Part shown: positions 10,637-59,951 of the stretch, in pieces
Numbering within the stretch: the first letter of the stretch is position 1
Layout of the letters: each line of letters starts with the position of its first letter
Assembly (NCBI RefSeq): GCF_039962115.1
Contig: NZ_JAMPKJ010000027.1
Location: 1 to 64,000, forward strand
Source: Funiculus sociatus GB2-C1
GTDB taxonomy: Bacteria > Cyanobacteriota > Cyanobacteriia > Cyanobacteriales > FACHB-T130
Length of the DNA stretch: 64,000 nt
Direction of reading: 5' to 3'
Position numbers and translations under genes: made by a program
Notes under the pieces: generated by a model
The model's input: the letters and a program-made list of their open reading frames with translations, nothing else
Told to the model about the DNA's origin: nothing
The model's database searches: none

Positions 10637-10759
10637 GCGATCGCTTCTACCGTATTTCGCACCGCACCACCCCCTAACCACCAACCGGGGAGATTCAAAA
10701 GCGCGATCGCAAATAATACAGCTCCAACAGGTGAATCAGCCAGAAGCTTTTGGAGACGA
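10637..10759 (-). pseudogene. Nucleotidyltransferase N-terminal fragment (copy 2 of 3)
   Basis: The minus strand reads LQKLLADSPVGAVLFAIALL, then NLPGWWLGGGAVRNTV, collinear with copy 1 (9714-9893). It has no start codon of its own and runs out of homology after RNTV. The upstream end overlaps, in another frame, the last codons of the TPR gene (stop 10738-10736), so the C-terminus SSPKASG of that protein is borrowed from this repeat. Confidence 0.6.
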
Positions 10760-12625
10760 AATAGAGCGAGCAATTTCTACGGCTTGCTCTAGTAACTTTA
10801 GAGCTTCCTCAGTCTGCTCAGCTTGAGCGTATTCACGAGCGATCGCACTGAGCGCCTGAACCCTTCTATAGTTACCAAATTTGTTCGAGTTCATCATATT
10901 AACAGCTTGAATCGCACGGTCAAACTGCCTTAACTGTCCATACTCACGAGCAATTGCCAAGAGCAGTTTATTGCGATAGTTAAGACTCTCATTTGTCGCT
11001 CCATCAATTGTCTCACCAATGGCTTGAGTTGCCTGCTTTGTCCATTCAATTGTCTGAGTTGTTTGCACCGCCCAGTCTAGTTCTCTTGCCTCAATAGCCC
11101 GTTCGATGATACTGTAAATGACGCTAGCTTTATTTTGAACTTCCAGAGCCTTAATCATCTGAGCCGTCTTAAGCGCTTGGGCGTACTGCCCTTTTGATGC
11201 ATATTGATCGACAATGCGACGCAACGCCTCGTCTCGATGACCTCTACCAAGGGTATTAGCAAGCTGGAGTGCCTGTTCAAATTTCCCAGTTTGTGCATAG
11301 AAGTCCACAATAGGTGGCATCAAACTTTGGTAGGCAAACTTGGAGTCTACTGGAACTTGAGAAAAGTCGGAAGCGGCAAGATTCAGTTTGCCAGTTTGAA
11401 CCAGTTGAGCCACTGCGAGTGCCTGAGCGATTTGTCCAATTCTTAAGTACCCAGCAATAATTTCTTCAAGCGCACGACTCGCCTCATAACGAGCATCTGA
11501 GCGTAAATTTTCTGCACCGGCTTGTAGAGTCAATAGTGATTTATTCAAAAGCTTGACTGCTTCTGCATCCTTCTCCACATTTGCATACAGATTGGCAACT
11601 GCTGTCAATGTACGCGAGCGAGAAATAGGATTTGCAATCTTTTGTGTAGCTACAACTATTTGTTCAAGAGCTTTGAGAGTTAGTGCAGAAACTTCTGTCG
11701 CTTGTTCAGCTAGTTCTACTTCCTGGCAACTGTTGAGAATTTGCCTTAGCTGCTCTGGATCTAAAGTTTCTATAATTGTTCTTATTGACAAAAGAGTGTT
11801 AGTTTCTTTTTGGGCAAAACACCGAGAAAGCTCTATTTGTGCTTGATTTTGTCGAGATTCGGTGCTTGAGGAGCTACTATTGAAGGTTCGCTCAGCCTTT
11901 GAAGCTAAACTCTGAAGCTCGGCTGCTCGGTCAGGCTGACCTATCTCGTTATAGTAGTTAACTAGGAAAAGCCATATTTGAACAGCTTTGTCAGATTGCC
12001 CTGTCCTGTTGTAGTAATCAGCTAACTTTAGCTGTATTTCAGCCGCTCGATCAGGTTGTCTTAAGCCACTGTCAGTGTATGTATATAGCAGCCCTTGCAG
12101 CATATCTTCAAGATAGTTGTCTCCAAAACTCGTTGCGATTCTAAGGGCTATGTCATGGCGACCATCTCTAGCGTGCCTTCCCGCCGCTACAAGTACCCAA
12201 TTCTGTGGATCGTTACGAGCAGATCCAGACGGTTCTGGTTCGCAGTATTTAGTTGTCTCAAGAATTTTTTGAGCTTGAGCAAAAAGTGCAGAACTTTTGG
12301 CTTCTTGCCCCATGAAGGCGTAGTGACCCGCAACATCGGTTAAAATTTCGAGCTTGTGGCAGGGGTTTGCCAGGGTTTGATTGAAAGACAACGTTTCTTC
12401 TAGAAGCTGAATAGCTCGGTCAGGCTGCTTAATGGTAGTGTAGCCCCCTGCAAGGGAAGCTAATAATTCTGTTTCAGCTAGAACCAGCTCCGGCTCCGCA
12501 TTTTTTTGTCCAATCACTGCGCTTTCAGCTAGAACCTGTTCCGGTTCCGCATCTTGTCCAATCACTGCGCTGCCTGGATGAGTGATAGTCAACAGCAGCA
12601 CAGCCAACAAAAGTTTGAGTTTCAC
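10736..12625 (-). CDS. Secreted TPR-repeat protein
   Basis: 629 residues. A signal peptide (KLKLLLAVLLLTITHPGSA) is followed by a short tandem duplication: SAVIGQDAEPEQVLAE (19-34) and SAVIGQKNAEPELVLAE (35-51). The rest is tetratricopeptide-like helical repeats of about 34 residues, with motifs such as QPDRAIQLLEETL, KFEQALQLANTLG, QYAQALKTAQMIK and QTEEALKLLEQAVEIA. It has no recognisable catalytic domain and is probably a periplasmic protein-protein scaffold. The last residues (SSPKASG) are encoded by the flanking nucleotidyltransferase repeat, so the original C-terminus may have been lost. No operon partner is visible. Confidence 0.82.
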   Translation of the reverse strand: MKLKLLLAVLLLTITHPGSAVIGQDAEPEQVLAESAVIGQKNAEPELVLAETELLASLAGGYTTIKQPDRAIQLLEETLSFNQTLANPCHKLEILTDVAGHYAFMGQEAKSSALFAQAQKILETTKYCEPEPSGSARNDPQNWVLVAAGRHARDGRHDIALRIATSFGDNYLEDMLQGLLYTYTDSGLRQPDRAAEIQLKLADYYNRTGQSDKAVQIWLFLVNYYNEIGQPDRAAELQSLASKAERTFNSSSSSTESRQNQAQIELSRCFAQKETNTLLSIRTIIETLDPEQLRQILNSCQEVELAEQATEVSALTLKALEQIVVATQKIANPISRSRTLTAVANLYANVEKDAEAVKLLNKSLLTLQAGAENLRSDARYEASRALEEIIAGYLRIGQIAQALAVAQLVQTGKLNLAASDFSQVPVDSKFAYQSLMPPIVDFYAQTGKFEQALQLANTLGRGHRDEALRRIVDQYASKGQYAQALKTAQMIKALEVQNKASVIYSIIERAIEARELDWAVQTTQTIEWTKQATQAIGETIDGATNESLNYRNKLLLAIAREYGQLRQFDRAIQAVNMMNSNKFGNYRRVQALSAIAREYAQAEQTEEALKLLEQAVEIARSISSPKASG

Positions 12626-12906: not shown

Positions 12907-13317
12907 TTAAACCATGCCACCAGCAGCTTGAAACCGAGCGCGGGCGCGTTTAAGGGCTTGAGTTGCCTGAATTTGCTCCTGACGGGAGCCGCCACTCTCA
13001 GCTTTATTAATTCTGGCTTCGGCTTCGGAGTACGCAGCACGGGCTTGTTCCCGGTCAATTTTATCGCCCCGTTCGGCACCATTAACCAGAATAGTGACTT
13101 CATCATTGTCCACTTCTGCGAAGCCACCCATCAGAGCGATCGCTACCCAATCTTTCCCTGGACGAACGCGCATCACACCGATATCCAACGCCGTCAGTAA
13201 AGGTGCGTGGCCAGTGAGGATACCTAGTTGACCAGTTGTGCTTGGCAGAATCACCTCTTCAGCACTGGAATCCCAAACAGTTTTGTCGGGAGAAACTACA
13301 CGAATAGTTAAAGCCAT
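12907..13317 (-). CDS. atpC: ATP synthase F1 subunit epsilon
   Basis: 136 residues, the usual cyanobacterial length. The N-terminal beta-sandwich begins [21 protein letters not shown] and holds the family block [18 protein letters not shown]. The C-terminal pair of helices (from about residue 90) is rich in Ala, Arg and Glu. Epsilon sits on the gamma central stalk of F1 and can inhibit ATP hydrolysis. It follows atpB on the same strand with a gap of about 100 bases, the arrangement normal for cyanobacteria, where these two genes are separate from the main atp operon. The gap contains a small TTGTCAG tandem repeat. Confidence 0.97.
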
Positions 13318-13416
13318 AGTTTGTTACTTGTCAGTTGTCAGTTGTCAGTTAGCTCATCGCTAATGCCTAATTGTCAAAACTAGCCATCCTGACCTTAGCG
13401 ATGAGCAATCCTTCAA

Positions 13417-14886
<1,470 letters not shown>

Positions 14887-15089: not shown

Positions 15090-15128
15090 CGATCAAATTA
15101 AATTTAGAATCTGAGTATGGCTATTATC

Positions 15129-15818
15129 TTAGGCTTGCTGTTCTTGTTTGCGCTTGGCCCGCTTTGTGACACCTAATGCACCAAGACCCAGTAAAGCGAT
15201 CGCACTAGCAGGCTCAGGAACATCTATCGGCGGCTGTACTGGATCGGTTGTCGTACCGCTATCAGTATCGGCTTTAAAGCTCATCCCCCCTGTAAATCCG
15301 TTAAGCCAGCTCATTGACAAAGTACCGAACAAATCGCCCAGTGAAATGTCAATTGGTGTCGAATAGTTAGATGAAGTTGGAGCTTGTCCAGATTGGACTG
15401 CAAACGACAAACCACTAGCCGACCCAGGCGTACTGGGGTTGCTACCTGTATCAAAAACTGTGTTTCCGGGAATAGCATTGATTGTCAACTTGGCAATACT
15501 TTGCCCCAGGTTGTTAAATCTCCAGGCTGAAGTGAAAGTATCACCAGCTTGGGTCAACGACCAGTTGCTACCGAATGCTCCTCCCGAATTGGCATCATTT
15601 GAAGTTGCCGGATTTGAAGTCGCCCCCCAAGTTGCAGTCTGGGAACCTCCACCGAGATAATCAACTGTCACTTTCATCCCAGCCATCATGTCTCCGAAAG
15701 TTGAAAACCCTGTGAGAGTGGTTGCTTGGGATGGTGCTACGCCTGTTCCCACGATTAACGTCGCCCCAACAACACCAGTTGACAATTTTTTCAAGAAAGA
15801 TGTACGCATAAAATTCAT
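15129..15818 (-). CDS. PEP-CTERM exported protein with unnamed N-terminal domain
   Basis: 229 residues. A signal peptide (FLKKLSTGVVGATLIVGTG, cleaved after SQA) precedes an about 170-residue domain beginning TTLTGFSTFGDMMAGMKVTV and continuing through ATWGATS, GGAFGSNWSLTQAGDT and LTINAIPGNTVFDTG to ADTDSGTTTDP. The C-terminus VPEPASAIALLGLGALGV plus a basic tail is a PEP-CTERM signal, by which exosortase-type enzymes anchor or release surface proteins. The same domain recurs in the broken gene 16500-16998 and the PKD protein 18984-20837. Its function is unknown; I recognise it only as a cyanobacterial exported domain. GGAG lies directly before the ATG. Confidence 0.85.
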   Translation of the reverse strand: MNFMRTSFLKKLSTGVVGATLIVGTGVAPSQATTLTGFSTFGDMMAGMKVTVDYLGGGSQTATWGATSNPATSNDANSGGAFGSNWSLTQAGDTFTSAWRFNNLGQSIAKLTINAIPGNTVFDTGSNPSTPGSASGLSFAVQSGQAPTSSNYSTPIDISLGDLFGTLSMSWLNGFTGGMSFKADTDSGTTTDPVQPPIDVPEPASAIALLGLGALGVTKRAKRKQEQQA

Positions 15819-16499
15819 TGCTCCAAACGGCTAACTTTTTGATATTACGGTTAATGGTTACTTGGCAATTACAACAATTTCGTATTATTAGTAGTTGCCA
15901 ATTTCTGAGCTACACTTAGCTATTTAGCTTTTGTAATTGCTTGTGCTTGCAAACGCTAAGACGAATATGGCACATGATTTTTACAACTGGCAACTACTTT
16001 AAGCTATCTTCATCAAATCAATACATTTAAATGACTTCTGTAAACTTCGTGATTTGTTTTTTAGAAAAAATATTCAAAAAAATACTGGAAGCGCTAATTT
16101 GTATAAATAGAAAAAATTTATTAGTAATATTACAGGCTAAGCTAAACTATTGATAGTGTTATTTCTTCAGTATTACGTACATAGTATTTTATCTTGCTCG
16201 TAGGATTACTTAAGTGTACGTCTATACATGGTTAGTAGGGGTAATAAACGTTCCATTTTCCTTTAAAATTTAGTAATTATAATTAACTGTGCATAATTAA
16301 TTGCACCACAATCTTGCCTTGCTACCTAAGGCTTTTAATAGGATTTGAGGTGTAATTTATTTCGCATATTCACTCATTTGTAAAGAATACAAGAGTGCGA
16401 TCGCACTCTGAGCAATACCCACATTTACCATCCTCTTTTTCAAAAAACTGCCATGTCTTCTGGTAGAAGACACGGCAATCATTAACTAGATTTTACTTT
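15819..16499. other. AT-rich intergenic region between PEP-CTERM genes
   Basis: 680 bases with no gene. It is AT-rich, holds long A and T runs and a single HIP1 site near 16398. It contains the upstream region of the gene at 15129-15818. A hairpin at 16450-16476 (GCCATGTCTTC/GAAGACACGGC, one mismatch) lies just after the broken gene 16500-16998 and may be its old terminator. The stretch TTATTAGTAATATT at about 16119-16132 recurs upstream of the PKD gene. Confidence 0.6.
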
Positions 16500-16998
16500 T
16501 TATGCTTTGTGTGGTTGTTTGCGCTTTAAATGCGAAGCTGCACCCAAAGCACCAAACGCCAGTAAACCCATCACAGAAGCAGGCTCAGGAACATCTTTCG
16601 GTTCCACTGGATTGGTTGTCGTACCGCTATCAGTATCGGCACGGAAACTCATCGTACCTGTAAAGCCATCAAGCCAGTTAATTGACAAAGTACCAAACAA
16701 GCTCGCCCAAGGAGATATCAATTGGCACAGAGTAATTAAAGGAAGTTGGAGCTGTCCCAGGGGTTACCAAGAATGGCTGACCAAAAGCTGACCCAGGCGT
16801 ACTCGGTACACTTCCTGTATCGAAAACCGCATTTCCCGGAATAGCATTGATTGTTAGGGAAGCAATTTCTGACCCAAGGTTGGTAAATGTCCACGCTGAA
16901 GTAAAGGAATCGCCTGCACAACTTAAACCCCAGTCAGTGCCAGAAGCTTTTCCCGTATCAATACCAGCAATAGCTCTTTGTTTTTTAGCAATAAACAA
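16500..16998 (-). pseudogene. Broken PEP-CTERM gene of the same domain family
   Basis: Two overlapping minus-strand frames together match the gene at 15129-15818. The upstream frame (16998-16678) has GTDWGLSCAGDSFTSAWTF, LTINAIPGNAVFDTG and VPIDISLGELV. The downstream frame (16721-16500) has LFGTLSINWLDGFTGTMSF, ADTDSGTTTNP and the PEP-CTERM tail VPEPASVMGLLAFGALG. They join by a frameshift near 16700-16710. The N-terminal signal peptide and about the first 60 residues of the domain are missing. The gene is therefore a recent pseudogene or, less likely, a sequencing frameshift in a truncated copy. Confidence 0.8.
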
Positions 16999-17102
16999 AA
17001 CTTATGTTCTATGTCATGCTGTCGGTGCTTCGCCTTCCCTGATATGAAGCGTTACCCCTATTTTTTTTACATAGAATTGAGACTATTTTCCTTGGCTTTG
17101 TG

Positions 17103-17807
17103 TCACTGTTGGCTCAACAGCCGCGACCGGACACCTAAAGCACAAAATGTTAATATACCGAACACAGAGGAGGTTTCAGGAATTTCACGGGCTGCCAAAC
17201 GGAACTCAGCCATAGCAAAACCATTAGCAGCACCGCCCGTTCGGTCAGTGATCGTGACGGAGGAAAGCACACCTCCATTAGTGGCGTAGAATCCGAAATA
17301 CTTGGCACCTCCAAAACCATTTATTTCTTGCGTCAGAGTTGCCAGACTACTATCAATAACCGTTACTGTAATTTTGTATGTACTAAACATATCTGGCTCT
17401 ACATACAAATCAAACGCAGATATACCAAAGGGCAATTTAATCTTCGTGGTCACAACATTAGCGCCGCTATAGTAGACCTCGCCCATGTGGCCATGACTCC
17501 ACGTTGTCCAGCTGGAACCAATATATCGTTTTTCTACCGTAGGGCTGAAAGTTAAGTTGCCAAACGGTGAAGAAAGGGTCGAAACCGACGATAACTCCGC
17601 TTCGGGGCTATCTGGCACCGTTACCATATTGAAACCTAGATTGGCTAAGGTGTCCGTCCCTGTTGCCCACGACCCAGAATCGTCTACTGCAATAATTGCT
17701 GCCCTAACAGGGGGCGCATTAGCTAAAGATCCAAGGGTTATAAATGTTACGCCAGCAGTAATCATAGATAGCTTTTTCATAAAAGCTGAGGTTTTCATAG
17801 GACTCAT
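17103..17807 (-). CDS. Exported protein with PEP-CTERM-like tail
   Basis: 234 residues from ATG 17807 (an upstream ATG at 17864 and an internal one at 17798 are alternatives; only starts near MKTSAFMKKLS place the signal peptide correctly). The signal segment is LSMITAGVTFITLGSLANA, cleaved near VRA. The mature part is beta-rich (AIIAVDDSGSWATGTDTLAN, FGNLTFSPTVEKRYIGSSW, FDLYVEPDMFSTYKITVTV) and ends ANGFAMAEFRLA, a pattern common in cyanobacterial secreted proteins. The tail EIPETSSVFGILTFCALGV plus Arg is a degenerate PEP-CTERM signal (IPE instead of VPEP). It lies within a cluster of such genes but lacks the TTLTGF domain. Function unknown. Confidence 0.75.
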   Translation of the reverse strand: MSPMKTSAFMKKLSMITAGVTFITLGSLANAPPVRAAIIAVDDSGSWATGTDTLANLGFNMVTVPDSPEAELSSVSTLSSPFGNLTFSPTVEKRYIGSSWTTWSHGHMGEVYYSGANVVTTKIKLPFGISAFDLYVEPDMFSTYKITVTVIDSSLATLTQEINGFGGAKYFGFYATNGGVLSSVTITDRTGGAANGFAMAEFRLAAREIPETSSVFGILTFCALGVRSRLLSQQ

Positions 17808-18861
17808 TTTTCTACAAGTGTGCATATTCACAGGAAACGTCTTGAGAAGTGCGTTAATTTGCACTGTTGATCTAGCGATTCCGAAAGATTTAGCGTTTGT
17901 GTACTCCTAGTGGCTTGCTAGTTGTGATAGTAGAGTCACCAGAAATTTGCTTCATTAGTAAGAATCAATCACCAGCAAAAATGACTTAAGATCATTTCCT
18001 ATTAATTGCTTTGAGCAAGTACCTGCACAGATGATGAAAAGATATTGCCTCAGTCGTTAATAGAAGCCTTCAGGAATCTTACTGACAAAAATTATGTATC
18101 CCTCAAACTTAATGTTGATTCAGTAATTTTTCTGACGTGCGATCGCAACCTTTGTTTCTCTAAAAGCTACTTATTTCATATGTGGACTGGAATTCTTATT
18201 TGCTAAGTTTGGTTAGAACATAGCTAGGGAAAGTTTGGCATATATTTAATAACTATGGCTAGTATTTATACGTAATCTTTATTAAAAAAACATATTTAAC
18301 TACGGTATTTTCGGATACCGATAGAGGATTAAGTAGCTATATCACTTGTTGCATATAGCTTGCACGATTCCTAAGAAGCACTTGATTACATTAAATCTAT
18401 ATAAAATTTTAGTAAAGCCTGATTGTAATAAGATGTTATTTCTACAGGTATCCAGGTATACTTTTCAGCTATTTTTCCGGCAAAATTTGCTGTTGAAATG
18501 TCCCTAGGAGATTTTATTTTTGCTAAGACCTGCTGAGATTAAAATAATTGTTCCGGCGGCAATATAAGACGGAGTTGATGTTATTTTTGTATTAATTGTT
18601 GCTTTTGTTCGCAATCGTCAAGCTCTGGCGACATGAGAAATAAAGTAATTATAAACTGGTAAGAAAACCAGGTATAGGAAGTGAAGGTTCTATTTTTTTG
18701 AAAGAAAAACTCACCCTTTTTTTAGGGGCGGATTCAATACCATAATTTTAACCATGTTTTAAAAGAGTGTATTTTAAAATACATTTTTCCGGCTTAAGCT
18801 TTCTGTAGGGTTGCAGGAAGGATGAAAGCGATCGCTCTCAACTTTCCCACTTTTGGAAAAA

Positions 18862-18904
18862 TACCCGTGCAGCTCTGGCTTACAAAGCCAGAGCTGCACG
18901 GGTA
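18862..18904 (-). terminator. Perfect 20-bp hairpin after the PKD/PEP-CTERM gene
   Basis: The arms (18862-18881 and 18885-18904) begin TACCCGTGCAGCTC and are perfectly complementary over 20 bp around a 3-nt loop, an exceptionally stable structure. It lies about 80 bases beyond the stop of the minus-strand gene 18984-20837, but no T run follows. It may be a terminator, an mRNA 3'-end stabiliser or a mobile palindromic repeat. Confidence 0.6.
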
Positions 18905-18927
18905 GACTTAGTTTGTAAAACATTGAG

Positions 18928-18963
18928 GCAACGCCTGCGGGTATATATACAAGCAGGCGTTGC
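18928..18963 (-). terminator. Second hairpin after the PKD/PEP-CTERM gene
   Basis: Arms GCAACGCCTGC (18928-18938) and GCAGGCGTTGC (18953-18963), an 11-bp perfect stem with a 14-nt loop, 20 bases after the stop codon. With the neighbouring 20-bp hairpin it makes a tandem structure at the 3' end of the gene. Confidence 0.55.
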
Positions 18964-18983
18964 ACCGCCAAGTAACGGTTACG

Positions 18984-20837
18984 CTAAATTTTTCGCTGGT
19001 GTTTACGCTTATAGGCTATACCAGCACCTACAGCACCAAACGCGAGTAAACCGAACGCCGAAGAAGGTTCCGGAACGTGTTCAACTGCCACGTCAAAAGA
19101 ACTGTAAGTAAAACCGTTATTACCATCAGAGACTTTTAACTTAACGTTATAAACACCGTCATTGTTAAAAGACCACTGCCCATCGGTACCAAAGAAATCA
19201 TCATACTCGCCATCATCATCCAAGTCCCAAGCAAAGCTGAGAAGATCGTTGATACCCGGATCAGTTGCGGTAGCACCAAAATCAAACAACTCACCTTCTA
19301 AAACACTAATAGCCTTGGTGATGCTGGTAATTGTCGGCGCAACGTTCTCCACTGTGACGTTAAAAGAACCGAAATCAAAACCACCATCGCCATCGGCGAC
19401 TCGCAACCCCACGGAGTTGACACCTACATCTGTATAGGCATATTTTCCAGTTTGACCCCTGTAGTCATCATACCTACCGTCACCATCCAAATCCCAGCGA
19501 TATCTGAGAATATCGTAGATTCCCGGATCGGTAGCAGTAGCGGCAAAATCGAAGGATTCGCCTTGTTTAATAGTTAAATTTTGGGTGAGGCGGGTAATTG
19601 TAGGAGCAACGTTCTCCACTGTCACGTTAAAAGAACCGTAATCATACCCACCATCGCCATCGGAAACTTGCAGCTTGATGGGATTGGAACCCTCATCCGC
19701 AAAGGAATGTCTGCCCCTAATGCCAGTGCGGTTATCATACTGACCGTTATTATCCAAGTCCCAATTGTAGGTGAGAATATCATTGATACCCGGATCAGTG
19801 GCTCTAGCAGCAAAATTGAAGCGATCGCCTTCTTTGATCGTGATATTTCGGGTGAGTCTATTGATGGTAGGAGCGACATTTAAAACAGTTAATGTCCTCG
19901 TGATAACACTTGTTTCACCTTTATCGTCCTGTACTTGCGCCGTTAAAGCATGGGTTCCCTCATCAACATAAGTTCCTAAAGGCACAGTCACAGAACTGCC
20001 TCCGGCAGTATTTACCGCACTGCCAATAACATTACCGTTCAGCCAGAAAGTAAGCGGATCGTTATTCGCATCACTGCCATATACGATTGGCGATACCGAT
20101 TGACCCTCATTGATCGTGTAATTGTCCAAACTCACTATCGGTGCGACGTTTGGTGGTGGTGGCGGTGGTGGCGGTATGACAGGTGGCAGTGGTGGTGGGA
20201 TGACGGGTGGCGGTGGCGGTGGCGTGATAGGTGGTGCTGGCTCTAGCGGCTTAACCGGATCGTTTGTGGTGCCGCTATCAGTATCGGCGATAAATGTCAT
20301 TGTCCCGTTAAATCCGCTGTTCCATACCATTGCGAGACGGCCAAACAAGTCTCCCCGCGAAATATCAATCGGTACAGAGTAAGCGTGGTTATCGGGCCTT
20401 TTTCCAGATAACACCTCGAAGTTCCAACCATCTGCTGAGTTCGGCGTATATTCGCTATCTCTACTTCTGATCCGATCGAAAACAGCATTTCCGGAAATAG
20501 CATCAATCAGTAGAGAGTTAAGCGAGTTGCCACCAGAGTACGAAAACGTCCAGCCGTAGGCGTTATTATCGGAACTATAACCGTATGTATCGCCACGTTG
20601 GGTGAGTGACCAGCCAGTACCAAACGCTCCTCCTGAATTAGAGCTTGTGGCACCCCAGGTTGCAATTTCGTAGCTTCCATCAAGGAAGCCAACCTTAACT
20701 TGCATTCCACTCATCATATTTCCGGTAGTTTTAAAGCCAGTGAGAGTTGTTGCCTGGGAGGGTGTGGCTGTGGTTCCTATGACAATAAAACTTGCGCCAA
20801 CAATAGCAGTTGCTAGATTCCTGAAAGAGATATTCAT
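18984..20837 (-). CDS. Large PEP-CTERM surface protein with PKD-like repeats
   Basis: 617 residues. A signal peptide (LATAIVGASFIVIGTTA, cleaved after SQA) leads into the unnamed domain shared with 15129-15818 (TTLTGFKTTGNMMSGMQV ... ADTDSGTTNDP, to about 200). A linker of mostly Pro with Ile follows (about 203-235), then one Ig/cadherin-like unit (VAPIVSLDNYTINEGQ) and three PKD-type repeats of about 90 residues, each with INRL/ITRL/ITSI, TATDPGINDILTYNWDLD or similar and a DNNGQYDN or DGDGRYDD acidic loop that may bind calcium. The end is VPEPSSAFGLLAFGAVGAG plus a basic tail, a PEP-CTERM signal. It is probably anchored or released at the cell surface, with roles in adhesion or matrix only inferred. 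Confidence 0.87.
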   Translation of the reverse strand: MNISFRNLATAIVGASFIVIGTTATPSQATTLTGFKTTGNMMSGMQVKVGFLDGSYEIATWGATSSNSGGAFGTGWSLTQRGDTYGYSSDNNAYGWTFSYSGGNSLNSLLIDAISGNAVFDRIRSRDSEYTPNSADGWNFEVLSGKRPDNHAYSVPIDISRGDLFGRLAMVWNSGFNGTMTFIADTDSGTTNDPVKPLEPAPPITPPPPPPVIPPPLPPVIPPPPPPPPNVAPIVSLDNYTINEGQSVSPIVYGSDANNDPLTFWLNGNVIGSAVNTAGGSSVTVPLGTYVDEGTHALTAQVQDDKGETSVITRTLTVLNVAPTINRLTRNITIKEGDRFNFAARATDPGINDILTYNWDLDNNGQYDNRTGIRGRHSFADEGSNPIKLQVSDGDGGYDYGSFNVTVENVAPTITRLTQNLTIKQGESFDFAATATDPGIYDILRYRWDLDGDGRYDDYRGQTGKYAYTDVGVNSVGLRVADGDGGFDFGSFNVTVENVAPTITSITKAISVLEGELFDFGATATDPGINDLLSFAWDLDDDGEYDDFFGTDGQWSFNNDGVYNVKLKVSDGNNGFTYSSFDVAVEHVPEPSSAFGLLAFGAVGAGIAYKRKHQRKI

Positions 20838-21712: not shown

Positions 21713-21988
21713 CTACTCAGACTCAGCCTTAACGCGCCGGATGGGCAAATTAGCAATTAACGCCGTCGCCCGTTGATTACTTTCTAAAGAAAATTCCAAT
21801 CCGTCTGCCTCAATTTCAACGTACCGAGAGACGACCTCCATAATTTCTTTCCGCATTGACTCAACCATCTCTGGGGTTAAGTCAGCGCGATCGTGAGCGA
21901 TTACCAATTGCAGACGGCGCTTGACTTCCGCACGGCTGTTGTCAGCACCCATGCGAGGAAAAAGTCGTTCTAAAAGTTCATTGATCAT
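21713..21988 (-). CDS. minE: Cell division topological specificity factor MinE
   Basis: 91 residues. The N-terminus [12 protein letters not shown] is the amphipathic/anti-MinCD segment. [20 protein letters not shown] and the following [20 protein letters not shown] match the conserved MinE core, which switches from MinD-binding helix to dimer beta-strand. It ends VRRVKAESE-like, a short cyanobacterial tail. MinE stimulates MinD ATPase and sets the Min pattern that keeps the Z ring at mid-cell. It follows minD after about 20 bases on the same strand, so the two are cotranscribed. Confidence 0.97.
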
Positions 21989-22008
21989 CGAACTGGCAGA
22001 AGTGAAGG

Positions 22009-22815
22009 TTAGATAATCTTAGACCACAATAATTTTCGGATGCGAGAAAAGACGTTTTCCTTAGCAGCATCCAAATCAATAAACTCGATTGGCTCACCTT
22101 CCAGGCGGCGTGCAATATTGTAAAATGCCATTCCCGGTCGAGAGAGATTTTCAGCCAATACCAAGGGTTCGCCTCGGTTGGTGGAGACAATTACCCGCTC
22201 GTCGTCAGGGACAACGCCAATTAGGGGAATTGAGAGAATTTCTTGCACGTCTTCCACTGACATCATGTCATTGGCTTGCACCATCGCGGGTCGAATGCGG
22301 TTGACAATCAGGCGGGTGCTTTTGATAGTGTGTGCTTCCAGTAAGCCAACAACGCGGTCAGCGTCGCGCACGGCGGCAATTTCCGGGGTAGTGACGATCA
22401 AGGCTTCTTGGGCGGCTGCGATCGCATTCTGGAAGCCCATCTCAATACCCGCCGGAGAGTCAATCAAAACATAATCGTACTTTGCAGCTAACTCATTGAC
22501 CAACTTCTTCATCTGGTCTGGAGTAACTGAATCCTTAGTTCGATTTTGGGCCGCTGGTAGTAGCACCAGTCCCGGTTGGCGTTTATCTTTCACCAAAGCT
22601 TGATCCAGCCGACACTCACCAGCCAGAACTTCAACAGCAGTGTAGACAATCCGATTTTCCAACCCCAGCAACAGATCCAAATTTCTCAGACCGAAATCCG
22701 CATCCACCAAGGCAACTTGCCGCCCCAATCGAGCTAGAGCCATGCCCAAATTTGCCGTTACAGTGGTTTTTCCTACCCCTCCTTTGCCGGAGGAAATTAC
22801 AATAATGCGACTCAT
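22009..22815 (-). CDS. minD: Septum site-determining ATPase MinD
   Basis: 268 residues. The deviant Walker [12 protein letters not shown] (signature K11, catalytic K16) is at the N-terminus, followed by [19 protein letters not shown] (switch I region) and [13 protein letters not shown] (switch II). The C-terminal [13 protein letters not shown] is the amphipathic membrane-targeting helix. MinD binds membrane as an ATP dimer and recruits MinC and MinE. It lies between minC (270 bases upstream, same strand) and minE. A separate promoter is possible in the minC-minD gap, which contains a hairpin at 23022-23054. Confidence 0.98.
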
Positions 22816-23021
22816 GTTGAAAGATTTGTTTTTTGACTTCTGATTTTGTTCTAGGCGCGGTTTATTGCGGCTTTGTTTTTGCCTTTTAAATTATGTTAAT
22901 GGCTTAGCTATTGAGTTTTGTAGTTGTGATATATAGTTATCACTCAAAAATAATAACTCCTTAACCGAAAACTAGCGCAAAACTTGGTGAGAGTGGGAGA
23001 GCAGGAGAGGGGGGAGAATGT

Positions 23022-23054
23022 GGCTAGTTCCCAGTCTCTGAGGGGGAACTAGCC
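23022..23054 (+). terminator. Hairpin with T run in the minC-minD gap
   Basis: GGCTAGTTCCC (23022-23032) pairs with GGGAACTAGCC (23044-23054). On the plus strand it is followed by ATTATTTTTTT, so it would act on transcripts antisense to the min genes, or partly on minC mRNA. The preceding G/A-rich run (22990-23019) is simple sequence. Confidence 0.45.
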
Positions 23055-23085
23055 ATTATTTTTTTGCCTTCTAAGTTTTGCCTGT

Positions 23086-23886
23086 TTATCCCCTAGCCCC
23101 CAGTGATAAAAATTGGGTTTTGGGAAAATCAGCAGCTTTAGCGATGCGAATTCCTTCCGGCGTTACATAAGCAACCTCCGGGTAAAATTGAGCAGGTGGC
23201 GTTTCCGGCGATCTGGCTAAATAATCGCCTATTCGCAGCTGAGTAGGTTCCATCTGTAGCGCCATAATCAGACATTGAGAATTCCCCTCAGCACCAGCAT
23301 GAGCAATTCCCCGCAAGCGTCCCCATACTAAAATATCGCCTGCCGCTATAACGCTACCGCCGGGATTTACTTCTCCCAGGATAACGACGGTGCCGGGATG
23401 ACGAATTTCCATGCCAGAACGCACAGTAGTTTGCAGATACAAAGGTTCTGTTAATAAAGGTGCTGGACTCGAAGGCTTTTCATTCAGGGAAGAAACAGGG
23501 GGCGACTGTTCCACCGAGTACCCAGCAGTAGCAGCAGCGACAGCGGTTTGACGGCGTGAAGTGTAAACGCGCTTAAGTTTTAGCTGGTCTTCAGAAAGAG
23601 CATCAGCGATCGCTTGCAGCTGGCGTGCATCCAACAAGCGATCTTTCGCCACCAAATGCACCGCTGTATTTGGTTGCCAGAAGCGATCGCCTCCATTCAG
23701 GCGCTGCTTTAGCTGTTGCCAAAGATCAGACCAGCTGCTAGTAGCAGGTGTCTCCGCTTCTGGGGGCAAAATTAACATAATCCCCCCATCCTCATTTTTG
23801 ATGCGAACTTGCTCGTGGCAATTCACCTCCCTTGGATTATCGGGAACCACTGAAACAGCTATAGGAACGGAGGAATCAGAAGTCAT
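23086..23886 (-). CDS. minC: Septum site-determining protein MinC
   Basis: 266 residues. The N-terminal domain (about 30-110, from GGIMLILPPEAETP through WQPNTAVHLVAKDRLLDARQ) is the FtsZ-antagonising part. A Ser/Pro-rich linker of about 30 residues follows, then the C-terminal beta-helix with RSGMEIRHPGTVVILGEVNP, GGSVIAAGDILVWGRLRG and IAHAGAEGN, which binds MinD. It inhibits FtsZ polymerisation away from mid-cell. It opens the minC-minD-minE cluster, all on the minus strand. Length and layout are normal for cyanobacteria. Confidence 0.96.
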   Translation of the reverse strand: MTSDSSVPIAVSVVPDNPREVNCHEQVRIKNEDGGIMLILPPEAETPATSSWSDLWQQLKQRLNGGDRFWQPNTAVHLVAKDRLLDARQLQAIADALSEDQLKLKRVYTSRRQTAVAAATAGYSVEQSPPVSSLNEKPSSPAPLLTEPLYLQTTVRSGMEIRHPGTVVILGEVNPGGSVIAAGDILVWGRLRGIAHAGAEGNSQCLIMALQMEPTQLRIGDYLARSPETPPAQFYPEVAYVTPEGIRIAKAADFPKTQFLSLGARG

Positions 23887-27060: not shown

Positions 27061-29748
27061 ATGAAAAACCCGTCAATACCTTTACGAATGCCTGACTTTC
27101 GGACTTTGTTTGAGTCTGTACCAGGCTTGTATCTGGTATTGATGCCAGATTTTACTATCGTGGCGGTTAGCGATGCTTACTTGCGTGCCACGATGACAAA
27201 AAGGGAGGAAATTCTGGGACGCGGAATATTTGATGTTTTTCCCGACAATCCAGACGATCCCAGTGCTACGGGGGTTCGGAATCTGAAAGCTTCCTTGGAG
27301 AGCGTACTACAAAATCGGGTGGCGGATACGATGGGGGTGCAGAAGTACGACATTCGCCGCCCGGAATCAGAGGGAGGTGGATTTGAGGAGAAATATTGGA
27401 GTCCGATTAATTCGCCAATCTTTGGGGAAAACGAAGAGATTGCCTATATCATCCATCGTGCCGAAGATGTGACAGAATTTGTCCGCCTCAAGCAGTTGGG
27501 AATTGAGCAGCACAAGCTCACCGAAGAACTGCAAGCACGAACCCAGCAGATGGAAGCTGAGATTTTCTTGAGAGCGCAAGAGTTACAGGATGTAAACAGA
27601 CAGCTAAGAGCAGCCAATGAGGAACTGGCAAAGGCGCGTGACGAAGCGCACACAGCGCAGGAGCAGATAGCAAGCATTCTCGAAAGCGTGACCGAGGCGT
27701 TTATTGGCTTAGATAGGGAATGGCGGATTACCTATGTGAACCAACAGACGGCGAAGCTTAACGGTAAACAGCCGGAGGACTTCATTGGCAAAATCTACTG
27801 GGAGGTTTGGCCCTGGTCAGTAGGGACTCGCCTTGAGAGGGAATATCGTCGAGCAGTTAGCGAGCAGATGGCTGTTCATTTTGAAGAGTTGTACGAGCCG
27901 TTGAATATCTGGTTGGAAATTTCTGCTTATCCTACCAAAGACGGACTCGGCATTTATTTTCGGGACATTAGCGATCGCAAAGCTGCGGAGAAACAGCGCG
28001 AACACTTGCTCTTCCAAGAGCAGCAACACACAACCCGCTTACAAAAACTGGCTGAGGCAACGTTAGCTATTAACTCGGCTTTGTCAATAGAAGAGGTGTT
28101 ACAAGTAATTACAGAGCAGGCACGTTCTCTCATCGATGCACACCAGTCAGTCACGAGTGTGACGATTGATCAAAACTGGAGTCAGGCGATTAATTCGGTT
28201 TCGCTTTCAGATAAGTATGCTGCATGGCGAGATTATGATGAAAAGACTGATGGTTCTGGGATTTACGCCTGTGTCTGCCACATGAATCGCCCGATGCGGA
28301 TGACTCAGGCTCAACTGGAAGCTCATTCCCGATGGCGAGGGTTTGGGGATGCGGCTGACAAGCATCCACCGATGCGGGGTTGGTTGGCGGCACCTTTGAC
28401 GGGACGGGATGGACGTAATATTGGTTTGCTCCAGTTGTCGGATAAGTACGAGGGCGAGTTTACCGAGGAAGACGAAGCGATTGTTGTGCAGCTGGCGCAG
28501 ATGGCATCGGTGGCGATTGAGAATGCGCGGTTGTACGAAGCGGAACAGAATGCACGTACTCAGGCGGAAGCAGCCAACCGAGTTAAAGATGAATTTTTGG
28601 CTGTGCTGTCTCATGAATTGCGATCGCCTCTGAATGCCATACTTGGTTGGGCGCAAATGTTGCGATCGCGCTCTTTTGACCAGAAAACTACATTTCGCGC
28701 GTTGGATACAATTGAGCGCAATGCCAAGTTGCAAACTCAACTAATTGATGATTTATTGGATATTTCCCGGATTATTCAGGGTAAGCTAAGTTTGAATGTC
28801 TCCCAGGTGGATCTAGTTTCACCGATTGAGGCAGCAATTGAAACTATGCGTTTAGCTGCTGAAGCTAAGTCGATTAATGTTAAATTTTCGATTTTAGATT
28901 CTGAATTGCAGGTAAACAAAAATCCCAAATCCCAAATCCCAAATCCCAAATTTCTAGTTGCGGGCGATCGCAATCGATTACAACAAGTTATCTGGAATCT
29001 GCTCTCCAATGCCATCAAGTTTACATCTTCTGGAGGAATTGTAGAAATTAAACTTGAGGCTATAGGTTCAAACACGCAAATTCAAGTCAAAGATACAGGT
29101 GTTGGAATAGATGCTGATTTTCTGCCTCATGTCTTTGATTACTTCCGCCAAGCTGATAGCAAAATTACCAGATCGTTTGGTGGCTTGGGATTGGGATTGG
29201 CGATCGTGCGTAACTTGGTAGAATTGCATGGCGGAACTGTTAGCGCCGAAAGTCTTGGAGTTGGGCTTGGGGCAACGTTTATCGTGCAATTACCGCTTAT
29301 TAAGGATGAAAGCATAAGTAAGGATGAATTTAATTCATCCCTGATCCCTGATTTCTCATCTTTACCTCTTGAGGGTGTGCGGATACTTGTTGTGGATGAT
29401 GAAGCCGACACCCGCGAATTTTTGACTTTTGCGCTGGAAGAATATGGTGCCGAAACGATTGTAGCTGCATCAGCAGCAGAAGCGTTAAAAGCATTGGAAT
29501 TGTATAATCCAGATGTGTTATTAAGCGACATCGGAATGCCCGAAGAAGACGGCTATAGTTTGATCCGCAAAGTGCGATCACTTTCTTTAGAACGTGGCGG
29601 AAGCATAAAAGCTGTAGCACTGACAGCTTACGCTAGAGAGGAAGACCAGGAACGGGCTATCTCTGCCGGGTTCCAGATGCACGTAGCTAAGCCCGTCGAA
29701 CCAGCAGAGTTGGTGGCGGCGGTGTCAAGTTTGACGGTTGGTTCTTGA
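27061..29748 (+). CDS. Hybrid sensor histidine kinase (PAS-PAS-GAF-HisKA-HATPase-REC)
   Basis: 895 residues, without membrane segments, so cytoplasmic. Domains in order: PAS (about 13-135, LFESVPGLYLVLMPDFTIVA), a coiled coil (145-205), a second PAS (208-320), GAF (340-500), HisKA with H518 in AVLSHELRSPLNAIL, HATPase (about 630-755, with KDTGVGID and GLGLGLAIVRNLVELHG), and a C-terminal receiver (about 775-890) with D823 in LLSDIGMPEEDG. It should autophosphorylate and pass phosphate to its own receiver. Between HisKA and HATPase, residues 621-630 are encoded by an in-frame AAATCCC tandem repeat, a short-tandem-repeat insertion normally intergenic. No partner regulator is adjacent. Confidence 0.93.
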   Translation: MKNPSIPLRMPDFRTLFESVPGLYLVLMPDFTIVAVSDAYLRATMTKREEILGRGIFDVFPDNPDDPSATGVRNLKASLESVLQNRVADTMGVQKYDIRRPESEGGGFEEKYWSPINSPIFGENEEIAYIIHRAEDVTEFVRLKQLGIEQHKLTEELQARTQQMEAEIFLRAQELQDVNRQLRAANEELAKARDEAHTAQEQIASILESVTEAFIGLDREWRITYVNQQTAKLNGKQPEDFIGKIYWEVWPWSVGTRLEREYRRAVSEQMAVHFEELYEPLNIWLEISAYPTKDGLGIYFRDISDRKAAEKQREHLLFQEQQHTTRLQKLAEATLAINSALSIEEVLQVITEQARSLIDAHQSVTSVTIDQNWSQAINSVSLSDKYAAWRDYDEKTDGSGIYACVCHMNRPMRMTQAQLEAHSRWRGFGDAADKHPPMRGWLAAPLTGRDGRNIGLLQLSDKYEGEFTEEDEAIVVQLAQMASVAIENARLYEAEQNARTQAEAANRVKDEFLAVLSHELRSPLNAILGWAQMLRSRSFDQKTTFRALDTIERNAKLQTQLIDDLLDISRIIQGKLSLNVSQVDLVSPIEAAIETMRLAAEAKSINVKFSILDSELQVNKNPKSQIPNPKFLVAGDRNRLQQVIWNLLSNAIKFTSSGGIVEIKLEAIGSNTQIQVKDTGVGIDADFLPHVFDYFRQADSKITRSFGGLGLGLAIVRNLVELHGGTVSAESLGVGLGATFIVQLPLIKDESISKDEFNSSLIPDFSSLPLEGVRILVVDDEADTREFLTFALEEYGAETIVAASAAEALKALELYNPDVLLSDIGMPEEDGYSLIRKVRSLSLERGGSIKAVALTAYAREEDQERAISAGFQMHVAKPVEPAELVAAVSSLTVGS

Positions 29749-30596: not shown

Positions 30597-30933
30597 AATT
30601 AGGGATTGGGGGCTGGGGATTGGGGATTGGGGATTGGGGAAGATAGGAATGTAACTGTTTTCTTTTGCTTTTCAGCAATTTCTTAATCCCTAATTCCCAA
30701 TTATCAGATGCTTCGTGAAATTAGTTTAAATATTTTCAAAAAAATGATATTTTTTCTGATATTCTTATAATATATTTAATTACTTTTAAATGATTTTGTT
30801 TACAATCGAAATCTCACCAAATTTTTAAAAATCGCACAGATTCCCATTATTTAAGTATACATCAATACATCAACCAGTACAAAACAGGGGACAAAAAAAG
30901 TTTTTTTGCCTGCTTCAATTTTTCGCGGTAATA
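30597..30933. repeat. GGGGATT tandem repeat block and AT-rich spacer
   Basis: 30601-30641 is a run of imperfect 7-mers GGGGATT, the usual cyanobacterial short tandem repeat. The rest of the 340-bp gap is AT-rich (30720-30900) and contains no frame worth reporting. It serves as upstream region of the prepilin peptidase gene (minus strand). Confidence 0.75.
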
Positions 30934-32572: not shown

Positions 32573-33523
32573 ATGGCAAAAGAACTGGCAATACGTACTT
32601 GTGGACTCACCAAGCAATTTGATCGGCATATTGCAGTTAATGATATAGATTTACAGGTAAAAGCCGGGGAAGTCTACGGACTAATTGGGCCGAATGGTGC
32701 CGGAAAAACTACGCTGTTGCGGATGTTGGCGGCAGCTGAAGAACCAACAACGGGTGAAATTTATATTAATGGCGATCGCTTGCAAAGAGATCACTCTAAC
32801 CCAACCCTGAAGCGGCGACTCGGCTATCTTCCCGACGACTTTCCCCTGTATGACGATTTGACAGTCTGGGACTACTTAGACTATTTTGGACGACTTTATC
32901 GCTTGCGAGAGCCACATCGCAGCCAGCGCCTGCGAGAAGTTTTGGAACTGGTGCAACTCACCAATAAGCGCAATAGCATTATTTCCACCCTCTCGCGGGG
33001 GATGAAACAGCGCCTGAGTCTGGCACGGACGATTATTCACGAGCCGATTTTGCTACTGTTAGATGAACCAGTTTCCGGCTTAGACCCAATTGCCAGGATG
33101 CAATTCCGGGAAATCATCAAAGTATTGCAGGAAGCTGGGATGACGATTGTGATTTCTTCCCATGTCCTTAGCGACTTAGCGGAACTTTGTACCTCAGTCG
33201 GCATCATGGAACTAGGTTTTTTAGTGGAAAGTGCGCCGCTAAAAGAACTTTATCGCCGTTTGTCGCGACAGCAGATTTTCCTGTCAACATTGGGTAAGCT
33301 AGAAGCACTTATTACCCAACTGAAAAACCATCCTTTAGTCGAAGAATGGGAGGTGGTGCCGGGACAAGAGCGAGTACGTCTTTATTTTACCGGGAGTCAG
33401 GAAGAGTGTGCTAAGTTATTGCGATCGCTCGTAGAATCCGGCATTGAGTTGACCGAATTCCACTGCACCCAAGAAGACCTGGAAACTATCTTTCTCAAAC
33501 TGGGACACCAGCAAGCCTCATAG
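32573..33523 (+). CDS. ABC exporter ATP-binding protein
   Basis: 316 residues. Walker A GPNGAGKT at 39-46 (K45), Q-loop in GYLPDDFPLYDDLTVWDYL, signature LSRGMKQRLSLARTI, Walker B LLLLDEPVSGLDP and switch His in ISSHVLSDLAELC. An extra C-terminal part of about 80 residues (after ELYRRLSRQQIF) is the regulatory region seen in ABC-2 type exporters with separate membrane subunits. It is followed by two paralogous permease genes (33608-35314, 35436-36944) on the same strand, so the three probably form one transporter. The substrate cannot be predicted. Confidence 0.93.
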   Translation: MAKELAIRTCGLTKQFDRHIAVNDIDLQVKAGEVYGLIGPNGAGKTTLLRMLAAAEEPTTGEIYINGDRLQRDHSNPTLKRRLGYLPDDFPLYDDLTVWDYLDYFGRLYRLREPHRSQRLREVLELVQLTNKRNSIISTLSRGMKQRLSLARTIIHEPILLLLDEPVSGLDPIARMQFREIIKVLQEAGMTIVISSHVLSDLAELCTSVGIMELGFLVESAPLKELYRRLSRQQIFLSTLGKLEALITQLKNHPLVEEWEVVPGQERVRLYFTGSQEECAKLLRSLVESGIELTEFHCTQEDLETIFLKLGHQQAS

Positions 33524-33607
33524 ATTTTGGATTTTGGATTTTAGATTTTGGATTTGATTGGAAATTGAAAATCTAAAATTCCGTTGATTCTGGAGAATTT
33601 TTTACTC

Positions 33608-56728: not shown

Positions 56729-57640
56729 TTACTTTTTGAGTGCCTTTTTCACCAAGTCTGGAATTTGAGAAGGACTGTCTGCTATGGGGATTTTGGCTTG
56801 CTTAAAAGCGGCAATTTGGCGCTCTTCGGGGGTTAGTTCAGATGCTAGTCCATCTCGCTGAGAGGCGAACATCATTTCCCGATGCCGAAGACTAATAGCA
56901 TTCGCGTGACCTATTAGTTTCTTTTGAGATTTACGACCTGCAAGGTAAGCAACTACTGGTTTGTCAAGTTCCTCAACAATGTATTTAGCAGCCGTTTCTT
57001 CACAGGGTACACCGATATGATTGACTAAAACAATTGCCTTAGTGTTTTTATCCGCAGCCAAAATTTGCAACCACTGGACAACCGAAGATCCAACAATTGG
57101 ATCGCTGCCAATACTAACAGCAACCGACTGACCAAGACTTGCTTGTGTCAATTCCCAAGCAACTTCGTAGGCCAGAGTTCCGGTGCGACCAATGATACCG
57201 ATGTTACCGGGGGTATAAAATTTACTTTCGTGAGTGCCTAGTAAAATTTTCCCTGGAACAATGATGCCTGAAGAGCCGGAACCCAGGACGAGGGTTTTGG
57301 TAGCTTCTGCCTTTCTCAGCAGTTTTACCATGTCCAGGGGAGGGATACCACCAGTGATGAGAATAATTTGTCGGATGCCAGAAGCGATCGCTTCTAGTGC
57401 TGCATCTAACACCTGATAAGCTGGTACAAAAATAATGCTAGTGTCAATCGCACCGACTTCCACGATTGCCTGTTCTACCAGGTCAAAAACTGGTATGCCG
57501 TGCAACAGCTGCCCACCATGTCCGGCGCTCGTTCCGGCGACTATATTTGTACCATAGGATTTCATCCGAGCGGCGTAGATTGAACCTTGTTCTTCCGAGA
57601 TGCCCTGTACCAGGATTTTATTGTCTGGCGTTACATTCAT
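56729..57640 (-). CDS. sucD: Succinate-CoA ligase subunit alpha-like protein
   Basis: 303 residues. CoA-binding part: ILVQGISEEQGSIYAARM, GTNIVAGTSAGHGGQLLHGI and FVPAYQVLDAALEAIASGIR. The phospho-histidine loop is IGHANAISLRHREMMFASQ, where the His of GHA corresponds to the active-site residue in GHAGAI of E. coli SucD, but the Gly-rich part after it is altered. The C-terminal ATP-site region is present. It overlaps the beta-subunit gene by an ATGA and follows it on the same strand. The pair normally makes succinyl-CoA reversibly with ATP in the TCA cycle; in cyanobacteria its role is less certain. The loop change invites caution. Confidence 0.88.
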   Translation of the reverse strand: MNVTPDNKILVQGISEEQGSIYAARMKSYGTNIVAGTSAGHGGQLLHGIPVFDLVEQAIVEVGAIDTSIIFVPAYQVLDAALEAIASGIRQIILITGGIPPLDMVKLLRKAEATKTLVLGSGSSGIIVPGKILLGTHESKFYTPGNIGIIGRTGTLAYEVAWELTQASLGQSVAVSIGSDPIVGSSVVQWLQILAADKNTKAIVLVNHIGVPCEETAAKYIVEELDKPVVAYLAGRKSQKKLIGHANAISLRHREMMFASQRDGLASELTPEERQIAAFKQAKIPIADSPSQIPDLVKKALKK

Positions 57641-58884
57641 GTTTTAGCAGTGGACTTTGCTAGAGAGACGGCTTGAGCGATCGCATCCTCCAGGTTATCG
57701 ATCCAGTTTACAGGCATTGAGGCGAAATGCTCGCTTGAATAATCAATTTCTCCCCCAAGCAGGCGGACGATAAACTGGGGAAGACTTTTTTGATCGTATC
57801 TGCGATCGCTTCCACGGGGGCGAAAGCGGCGAGTTGCCTGCGAGGGAACTTCTGGAATATCGTTAACTTTTCGTTGCAGGTAGTTGACAATTGATGAAGC
57901 TACTTCTTCATTAACTGCGGCACTACCGACAATATTCACCAGTAAAACTTTGATATTCTTATTTTGAACAAAGCGCTCCAACTCTTGTTCAAGCTTTTCG
58001 CCGCGAGATGCTGCACTTAAATCTCCACTTGCCTCTTCACTCACACTCAGGCATAAACGAGGCGAACCGCCAGCGCGAGTTACTAAATCGGCCATTGCGA
58101 TCGCTAAATCGCTACCATTGCAGAGAATCCCAATGTTGCCGTCTCGATTTACCCAGTTGAGACTTGATTGAGAAGTATTATTGTAAGTTTCTAGCGGCGT
58201 TTCTTTAGTCATCTCTGACTCTGGCATTTCTGCTGCCAGCATTGCCAGATCCGGGTGACGGTTGAAAGCAGCATCGTTAACAGTAATTTTGCCATCCAGC
58301 GCCATCACTTCACCTGTGGCACTAACACCCAGAGGATTGATTTCCAATCCATCCAAGTCTTTTTGGACAAACAGCTGGTACATTTTTTCTAAAATGCAGC
58401 TGACCGATCCGATAAGATTACCTTTGAGTCCCATTTTCACCGCGAGACGGCGGGCATAGAAAGGGGAAAATTCCTCCTCGACTATAACTTGCTGCATTTG
58501 CTCCATCACTGCTTCCACATTCATTCCTCCCTGAGAGGAACCTAACAGCACTGGGCGACGAGCGTTATAGTCTAGTGTTACTGCCAGATAGAATTCACGG
58601 GTGACATCATATTTTGCTTCTGCCAGCAATACTTGGGGATACTCACCCAGAATTGGCAGATTAAAAATTGCTTGAGCAGCTGCGATCGCATCTATGGTAT
58701 TTTCTGCAAATCGCACACCCCCAACTCTACCCCGTCCACCAGCACGCACTTGAGATTTTAGGACGACCGGATAGGGAATCTGTAACCTTTTCAAATCTCT
58801 CGTATGGTCGATGCGTTGCGAGGGCAAAACTGGAATGCCCATTTCGCGAAATAATTCTTTAGCTTGGTATTCTAATAAATCCAT
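57637..58884 (-). CDS. sucC: Succinate-CoA ligase subunit beta-like protein
   Basis: 415 residues from ATG 58884, the usual [19 protein letters not shown]; the frame open upstream of it is only translated repeat DNA. ATP-grasp features: [40 protein letters not shown] and [20 protein letters not shown]. The C-terminal ligase domain has [20 protein letters not shown]-like sequence. It is paired with SucD (ATGA overlap) to form the succinate-CoA ligase heterotetramer. The upstream side is a GGGATT/CCCCAGT repeat block (58885-59045). The fold is typical, though the C-terminal extension of about 20 residues is long. Confidence 0.92.
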
Positions 58885-59045
58885 AAGTTGGGGATTGAGG
58901 ATTGGGAATTGGGGATTAGGGATTGGGGATTGGGAATTGGGAAATTGGGAATTGGGAAATTGGGAATTGGAAGGAATCTTACCCAGTCCCTTGTCTCCAA
59001 TACCTAGTCCCCAGCCCCCAGTCCCCAATCCCCAGTTCCCAGCCC
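58885..59045. repeat. GGGATT/CCCAGT short tandem repeat block
   Basis: The left half is built of GGGATTGGGAATTGGG-type 7-mers, the right half of the reverse type (CCCAGTCCC, CCCAATCCCC), with AAGGAATCTTACCCAGTCCC between, so the whole can fold into a long imperfect hairpin. It lies between sucC and the SDR gene, both on the minus strand. A very similar composite is at 63668-63825, with GTCTTACCTAGTCCC in the middle. Confidence 0.85.
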
Positions 59046-59951
59046 CTAACCCCTGTTTTGCCAGTCTTTGGCGACTTCATTAATGCCGTAGAAACGCTTC
59101 CAGAAAGCATCAACAGCTCTGGTGGGTAAAACTTTGTTCATTAAAAACAGCAAGATATCCCCACCTGTAGCGGCAATATAGCGCGGACGGGGGTTGCGGT
59201 CTGTGAGCGATCGCACAATTACCTGTGCCACCCGTTCGGAAGTCCAAGCACGAGAACTGGTTCGTTCCTCCAGTCCTTCTAATCGATTAAAGGCAGCACG
59301 ATAAGGCGTATCTTGAGGATTTTTTACAGCTTGCTCCACCCTTTGGGCGGCGACGGCGAAAAAGTCTGTAGTAACTGGCCCAGGCTCAATAACGCTGACT
59401 TTGATATTAAATGGATCTAATTCCATCCTGAGAGCGTCGCTGAGTCCTTCCAAAGCAAATTTTGAGGAGCTATACAAACCCCCAAAAGGAAACGCCAGCC
59501 GTCCTCCCAGAGAACTAATATTAATAATTCTTCCTCCTCCTTGGTCGCGCATCACTGGAACTAAAGCTTGAATCAAAGCCAAGGGGCCTAGTAAGTTTAC
59601 TTGAAACTGCCGCTGTACCGCCTCAGTGGGGATTAACTCTACTGGCCCCATCTGTCCGTAACCAGCATTATTAACTAAAGCATCAACTCGCCCAAAATGC
59701 TCAACAGCTTTATTAGCTAAGGCTTTACCCTGCTCACAGACAGCTATATCTGTTGGAACTACCAGGACATCTGCACCAGCTTTGCGGCAGTAGGTAGCAA
59801 CATTCTCCAGTTTCTCCTGATTTCGAGCTGCCAGCACTAACCGTATTCCCAAAAACTGGGAGGCTAGATAGTTCGCTAGAGCAGCACCAATTCCCGTGGA
59901 GGCTCCCGTAATCAAGATAACTTGTTCAGATAGCGGTGTATAGGTTTTCAT
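59046..59951 (-). CDS. Short-chain dehydrogenase/reductase (SDR)
   Basis: 301 residues from ATG 59951, the start that puts the Rossmann motif at the expected distance; the longer frame from 60011 has no better support. [15 protein letters not shown] binds the nucleotide, NNAGYG follows, [20 protein letters not shown] contains the catalytic Ser, and [20 protein letters not shown] carries Y and K. The late segment [19 protein letters not shown] is typical of SDRs acting on lipid or steroid-like substrates. The reaction is NAD(P)-dependent oxidoreduction; the substrate is unknown. Confidence 0.92.

Follow-up and report, generated by a model that had tools for sequence, protein, structure and literature searches.

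The window, a 64,000-nucleotide stretch of the cyanobacterium Funiculus sociatus GB2-C1, carries three genes on one strand that share one exported domain, and by profile search this domain is a new family inside a known kind of protein. The PEP-CTERM tag on these proteins belongs to a known sorting system by which proteins reach the cell surface or the surrounding slime, and cyanobacterial PEP-CTERM proteins are abundant, most of them without a recognisable function or family. With somewhat more confidence than doubt, we favour a reading of the genes as an exosortase-processed protein family built on an uncatalogued beta-rich domain, with a matrix or surface role in which the domain would engage the cell's own exopolysaccharide. 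The domain now has a profile, a distribution, a history and relatives in another phylum that carry a different C-terminus.

Organization of the gene cluster

The cluster lies between atpDC (12907-14865) and minEDC (21713-23886), both named from sequence and conserved synteny, and its genes are all on the minus strand. The short gene (15129..15818) encodes 229 residues made up of a putative signal peptide, the shared domain (164 residues, 15231..15722) and a PEP-CTERM tail (15150..15224). The long gene (18984..20837) encodes 617 residues, in which a putative signal peptide and the shared domain (168 residues, 20247..20750) are followed by a proline-rich linker read from the sequence (20151..20246), a Big_9/cadherin-like Ig domain (residues 230-317, 19887..20150), three PKD_4 domains (19080..19880) and a PEP-CTERM tail (19002..19076). 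The sequence-only reading had described three genes on one strand with a common exported domain, the long protein adding a proline linker and PKD repeats before its tail, and both descriptions hold, as the open reading frames and motifs lie at these positions and the domain search returned one Big_9/cadherin-like and three PKD_4 domains. A DNA tandem repeat with a 267-bp period occupies 19198-19856 in the PKD region, and directly 3′ of the long gene there is a terminator-like hairpin whose 20-bp stem pairs perfectly (18862..18904, minus strand). The hairpin is identical in the same-species genome, and a T run follows the long gene on the minus strand.

The third domain-bearing gene is a pseudogene (16500..~16965), a 5′-truncated and frameshifted copy of the short gene that lacks a signal peptide as well as ~44 residues from the start of the domain, carries a frameshift at about 16696-16706 and retains a recognisable tail (16521-16595). 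Between the domain-bearing genes sits a fourth exported gene, absent from the sequence-only reading (17103..17864), that lacks the shared domain; its mature region is unrelated and without a family match, and it ends in a degenerate PEP-CTERM-like tail (PETSS). This gene is kept beside the long gene in two other genomes (G003 and G004) at about 57-59% identity. Exopolysaccharide or exosortase genes are not adjacent to the cluster in this genome, Rfam returned no family in the stretch, and a promoter scan gave sites no more numerous than in shuffled sequence. Elsewhere in the window, heptamer tandem repeats (e.g. TTGGGAA, GGGATTG, CCTAGTC) occur at 28920-28951, 30598-30640, 33523-33555, 58888-59046 and 63676-63809, one of them extending into the first codons of a mechanically called ORF at 57637-59028.

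The shared domain

The domain is ~165 residues long and its first residues stand directly after an A-x-A-type putative signal peptide (SQA, then TTLTGF; read from sequence). As read from the sequence, the N-termini have a basic n-region, a hydrophobic core and the cleavage-like SQA site, all of which are missing in the pseudogene. The short protein contains the motifs TTLTGF, ATWGATS, GGAFGSNWSLTQ, AIPGNTVFD and ADTDSGTT, and the long protein has the same set with AISGNAVFD as its variant of the fourth. In a within-genome search the short and long domains are 60% identical (E = 3e-42), and the short domain aligns with the broken gene in two pieces of 68% and 75% identity (E = 4e-32 and 3e-12, respectively). 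The likeness of the copies is far beyond chance, as a search of the 6.47 Mb genome with the short copy returned the other two and nothing else, the long one at E = 3e-42; short, long and broken are thus the only copies.

We compared 13 domain sequences with Pfam and NCBIfam, and no model matched even with E allowed to rise to 0.1; none of the PEP-CTERM families searched in NCBIfam covers the mature domain. Sequence comparison of the domain with PHROGs and the PDB returned nothing of weight, and none of the PDB sequences was matched by the profile. The domain had earlier been described as one that could not be named, and among the Pfam and NCBIfam models this remains so. Two AlphaFold models (pLDDT 74.5 and 79.5), built from only ten sequences, predict a beta-rich domain. 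Foldseek against the PDB gave neither model a match with E under 0.001, and the best VIA matches (Z 5.3 and 5.4) were to glycoside hydrolases (GH98, GH116 and GH63), in their beta-sandwich parts, a level that the tool itself reports as common. As the PDB matches of both models are at noise level only, we claim no fold.

PEP-CTERM tails and exosortases

PEP-CTERM tails were recognised in the short, broken and long genes, as had been proposed. The short and broken genes score above the Pfam PEP-CTERM cut-off (PF07589, 26.4 bits for the short gene, and 29.1 bits for its tail in the genome search), and the long gene reaches 19.7 bits by hmmscan (cut-off 20.7) and 24.5 bits in the genome search. 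The genome also encodes two exosortases, namely cyanoexosortase A (CrtA, TIGR03763, 251 bits, cut-off 150) with its associated protein TIGR04153, and cyanoexosortase B (CrtB, TIGR04156, 475 bits, cut-off 300) with its associated protein TIGR04533, all four of which pass the curated cut-offs. Because both the tails and the exosortases with their partners are present, the genes are part of a complete and well-known sorting system, which in this genome has about 40 PEP-CTERM-like tails, the weakest of them uncertain. Of the two outcomes that the sequence-only reading had named as fatal to it, a profile match to a described domain and a genome lacking an exosortase, neither occurred. It is from the PEP-CTERM tail only that we infer a surface location.

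Distribution, age and loss of the two forms

The domain is sporadic: a profile search found it in 26 of the order's 389 genomes, and in one of these (G234) there is a decayed fragment only. In a phylum sample of 386 genomes it was present in six, all from the same order, and in no genome outside the order. Viral contigs held no relatives and phages none. One copy per genome is usual, and the copies come in two builds, a short one (domain and tail) and a long one (domain, linker, Ig/PKD-type region and tail). Intact copies elsewhere end in a PEP-CTERM-like tail, save for one locus (L015) and copies cut by contig ends. A second profile, built on the diverged copies in one genome (G187), led back to the same genomes and so confirms that those copies are related; its extra near-threshold matches were mostly to the tail and were left out of the counts. 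At five loci of G187 (L048, L050, L051, L052 and L104) the neighbour is a divergently oriented protein of ~1240-1310 residues with a TPS secretion domain and, at its C-terminus, a CHAT domain. The sixth locus (L049) has transposase-like debris, and contig C15 of this genome carries two domain copies in tandem.

The long copies represent at least three families and cluster together in the domain tree, apart from the short copies (93/92; 69/94 with distant outgroups). The group includes L020, a copy labelled short in the tree whose contig ends just past the linker. Since long copies of several families group together and apart from the short ones, the gain of the Ig/PKD module is old, and it was probably a single event. 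The short gene of the window pairs with the short gene of another genome of the same family (G002), which has such a short-plus-long pair at the same place. On this tree the short and long forms are old paralogues, and only the pseudogene, nearest to the window's short gene (99/93), is a fit for a young tandem copy, derived from the short gene. The proposal of a tandem duplication with domain gain therefore fails, as the long copies are one old multi-family group, the same pair occurs in G002 and only the pseudogene is recent. Rooting the tree with alphaproteobacterial domains did not settle the order of the short and long forms. The place between or beside atpDC/minEDC is common to 11 genomes from three families, and a second place, adjoining a ribulose-phosphate epimerase gene, is shared by two genomes of another family; these shared places point to vertical inheritance.

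In a second genome of the same species (G064) the stretch with the short gene and the pseudogene (15094..16991) is missing and is replaced by ~252 bp encoding a PEP-CTERM-like tail remnant, LLFGGALGATSMLKRKRQLHS*. The homology of the pseudogene ends at 16965-16991, which is the same border as that of the gap in G064. Short copies thus decay or vanish within the species, as G064 keeps a remnant and the window a pseudogene, and such loss is in keeping with the report that PEP-CTERM genes are strain-specific, with gain and loss (PMC1569441).

The surviving copies are under purifying selection, with whole-gene dN/dS values, obtained by a simple counting method, of 0.18, 0.10 and 0.17 (long) and 0.11 (short). 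For the domain alone the value is 0.29 between the two same-species genomes, the closest pair, with few changes. The earlier description of the genes as diversifying thus does not apply at the sequence level and stands only in that copy number turns over.

Elsewhere in the window, a repeat-rich ORF (10736-12625) has a 51-bp tandem repeat in two copies close to its start (12472-12571) and a dN/dS of about 0.5 between the same-species genomes, higher than that of its neighbours.

Relatives in Rhodobacterales

A search of plasmid records, which had first seemed an unlikely place, found the domain in proteins of Rhodobacterales (alphaproteobacteria), the first match at E = 2e-5, an occurrence that is both unexpected and new. 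Two of these proteins score 57.7 and 56.6 bits against the profile, in alignments that cover positions 8-154 of its 161. Of 29 conserved positions (same residue in ≥85% of rows), 23 match in all six alphaproteobacterial rows, and those conserved across the phyla include W32, W67, F90, D91, Y120, D130, D152 and D154. With the profile matching over most of the domain and these residues shared, the Rhodobacterales proteins belong to the same domain family. Among the six proteins read, five carry Hint_2 (three of them after Big_9) and one carries RTX repeats; neither a PEP-CTERM tail nor a signal peptide was seen in these homologues. We read this as one extracellular module that was joined to different C-terminal parts in two phyla, the Hint_2 and RTX ends suggesting type I secretion. 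The gene of Parasedimentitalea marina and that of Paracoccus liaowanqingii are found amid glycosyltransferase, sugar transferase, CpsD/CapB or Wzz-like genes, and such a polysaccharide cluster is absent around the homologue in three of the five annotated Rhodobacterales contexts. Because these relatives have a different C-terminal part, the role of the domain can be tested apart from the sorting tag.

Proposed role and alternatives

From what is known of the PEP-CTERM system (PMC1569441, PMC12188702), the proteins would be exported by Sec and lose their signal peptide, and the C-terminal helix would serve as a temporary anchor. Cyanoexosortase A or B would then cleave the tail, so that the protein would be released or attached to the outer surface or to exopolysaccharide. 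The shared domain would be the working part of the mature protein and would most likely engage exopolysaccharide or matrix of the cell itself. The proline linker and the Ig/PKD stalk of the long form would keep the domain away from the anchor; the short form would offer the domain alone. The two would persist as old paralogues at the fixed atpDC-minEDC place, with repeated loss and decay of short copies, and such paired forms at one conserved locus lend themselves to comparing the domain on a stalk with the domain that has none. The processing, the location and the interaction with polysaccharide are steps that we infer, and the matrix or exopolysaccharide role is our best guess because the predictions from the sorting system are joined by the polysaccharide clusters around two of the homologues. 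PEP-CTERM proteins have also been reported to track exopolysaccharide genes (PMC1569441). Against a generic matrix role stand ZepA, a PEP-CTERM exoprotein that binds zinc (PMC10957091), and the Scy proteins, which have a part in pigment synthesis (PMC12188702).

More speculatively, and in our view unlikely as a whole, the domain could be a new cross-phylum extracellular module, perhaps calcium-stabilised and polysaccharide-binding, with alternative C-termini and, in one cyanobacterial lineage, cooperation with secreted TPS-CHAT proteases.

It is quite unlikely that the family consists of secreted solute- or metal-handling proteins that are released by exosortase rather than matrix proteins. 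Such a role has a precedent in the zinc-binding cyanobacterial ZepA, and the acidic residues conserved across phyla (D91, D130, D152 and D154) could bind calcium, but the ZepA zinc motif (H-X2-9-H-F/Y-H) is missing in 36 of 36 copies, which makes a ZepA-like zinc role unlikely; most copies have 0-1 histidine, and no zinc or metal genes were seen adjoining the locus. We think it still less probable that the domain is a carbohydrate-active enzyme or an accessory module of one, as the resemblance to glycoside hydrolase beta-sandwiches is no stronger than the noise level of common beta arrangements and the proteins lack a catalytic domain.

It is very improbable that the domain proteins, at least in one lineage, work with a secreted CHAT-type protease as its partner or substrate. 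The TPS-CHAT protein stands beside the diverged copies at five of the six loci of G187, but this pairing occurs in that genome only, and no TPS-CHAT gene lies near the other homologues read. The genome of the window has 25 CHAT-domain matches, all elsewhere, and we dropped the CHAT link for the window, as its contig has no such match. Least probable of all is a recently amplified, antigenically diversifying surface layer, the view of the sequence-only reading, which the differing copy number of the two same-species genomes would suit and which the age of the paralogues, purifying selection and the single copies of most genomes mostly refute.

Comparison with known systems

The cyanobacterial proteins resemble those of the PEP-CTERM/exosortase (EpsH) system (TIGR02595/PF07589; CrtA TIGR03763, CrtB TIGR04156) in their putative signal peptide, tail and exosortases with partners, and also in having a mature part unlike known families and strain-specific gain and loss (PMC1569441). 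They differ from it in that their mature domain falls outside the NCBIfam PEP-CTERM families searched. Like ZepA of Anabaena (PMC10957091) they are cyanobacterial, with a putative Sec signal peptide, a PEP-CTERM tail and a similar size; unlike ZepA they lack its zinc motif. The same sorting route is expected as for the CrtB-dependent PEP-CTERM proteins of Nostoc punctiforme hormogonia (PMC12188702). Finally, the Hint_2 and RTX proteins of Rhodobacterales (e.g. WP_127751419.1 and WP_011536707.1) have an N-terminal domain that is homologous almost from end to end, and Big_9, which follows the domain directly in three of these proteins, stands after the linker in the long protein, whereas their C-terminal part is Hint_2 or RTX instead of PEP-CTERM.
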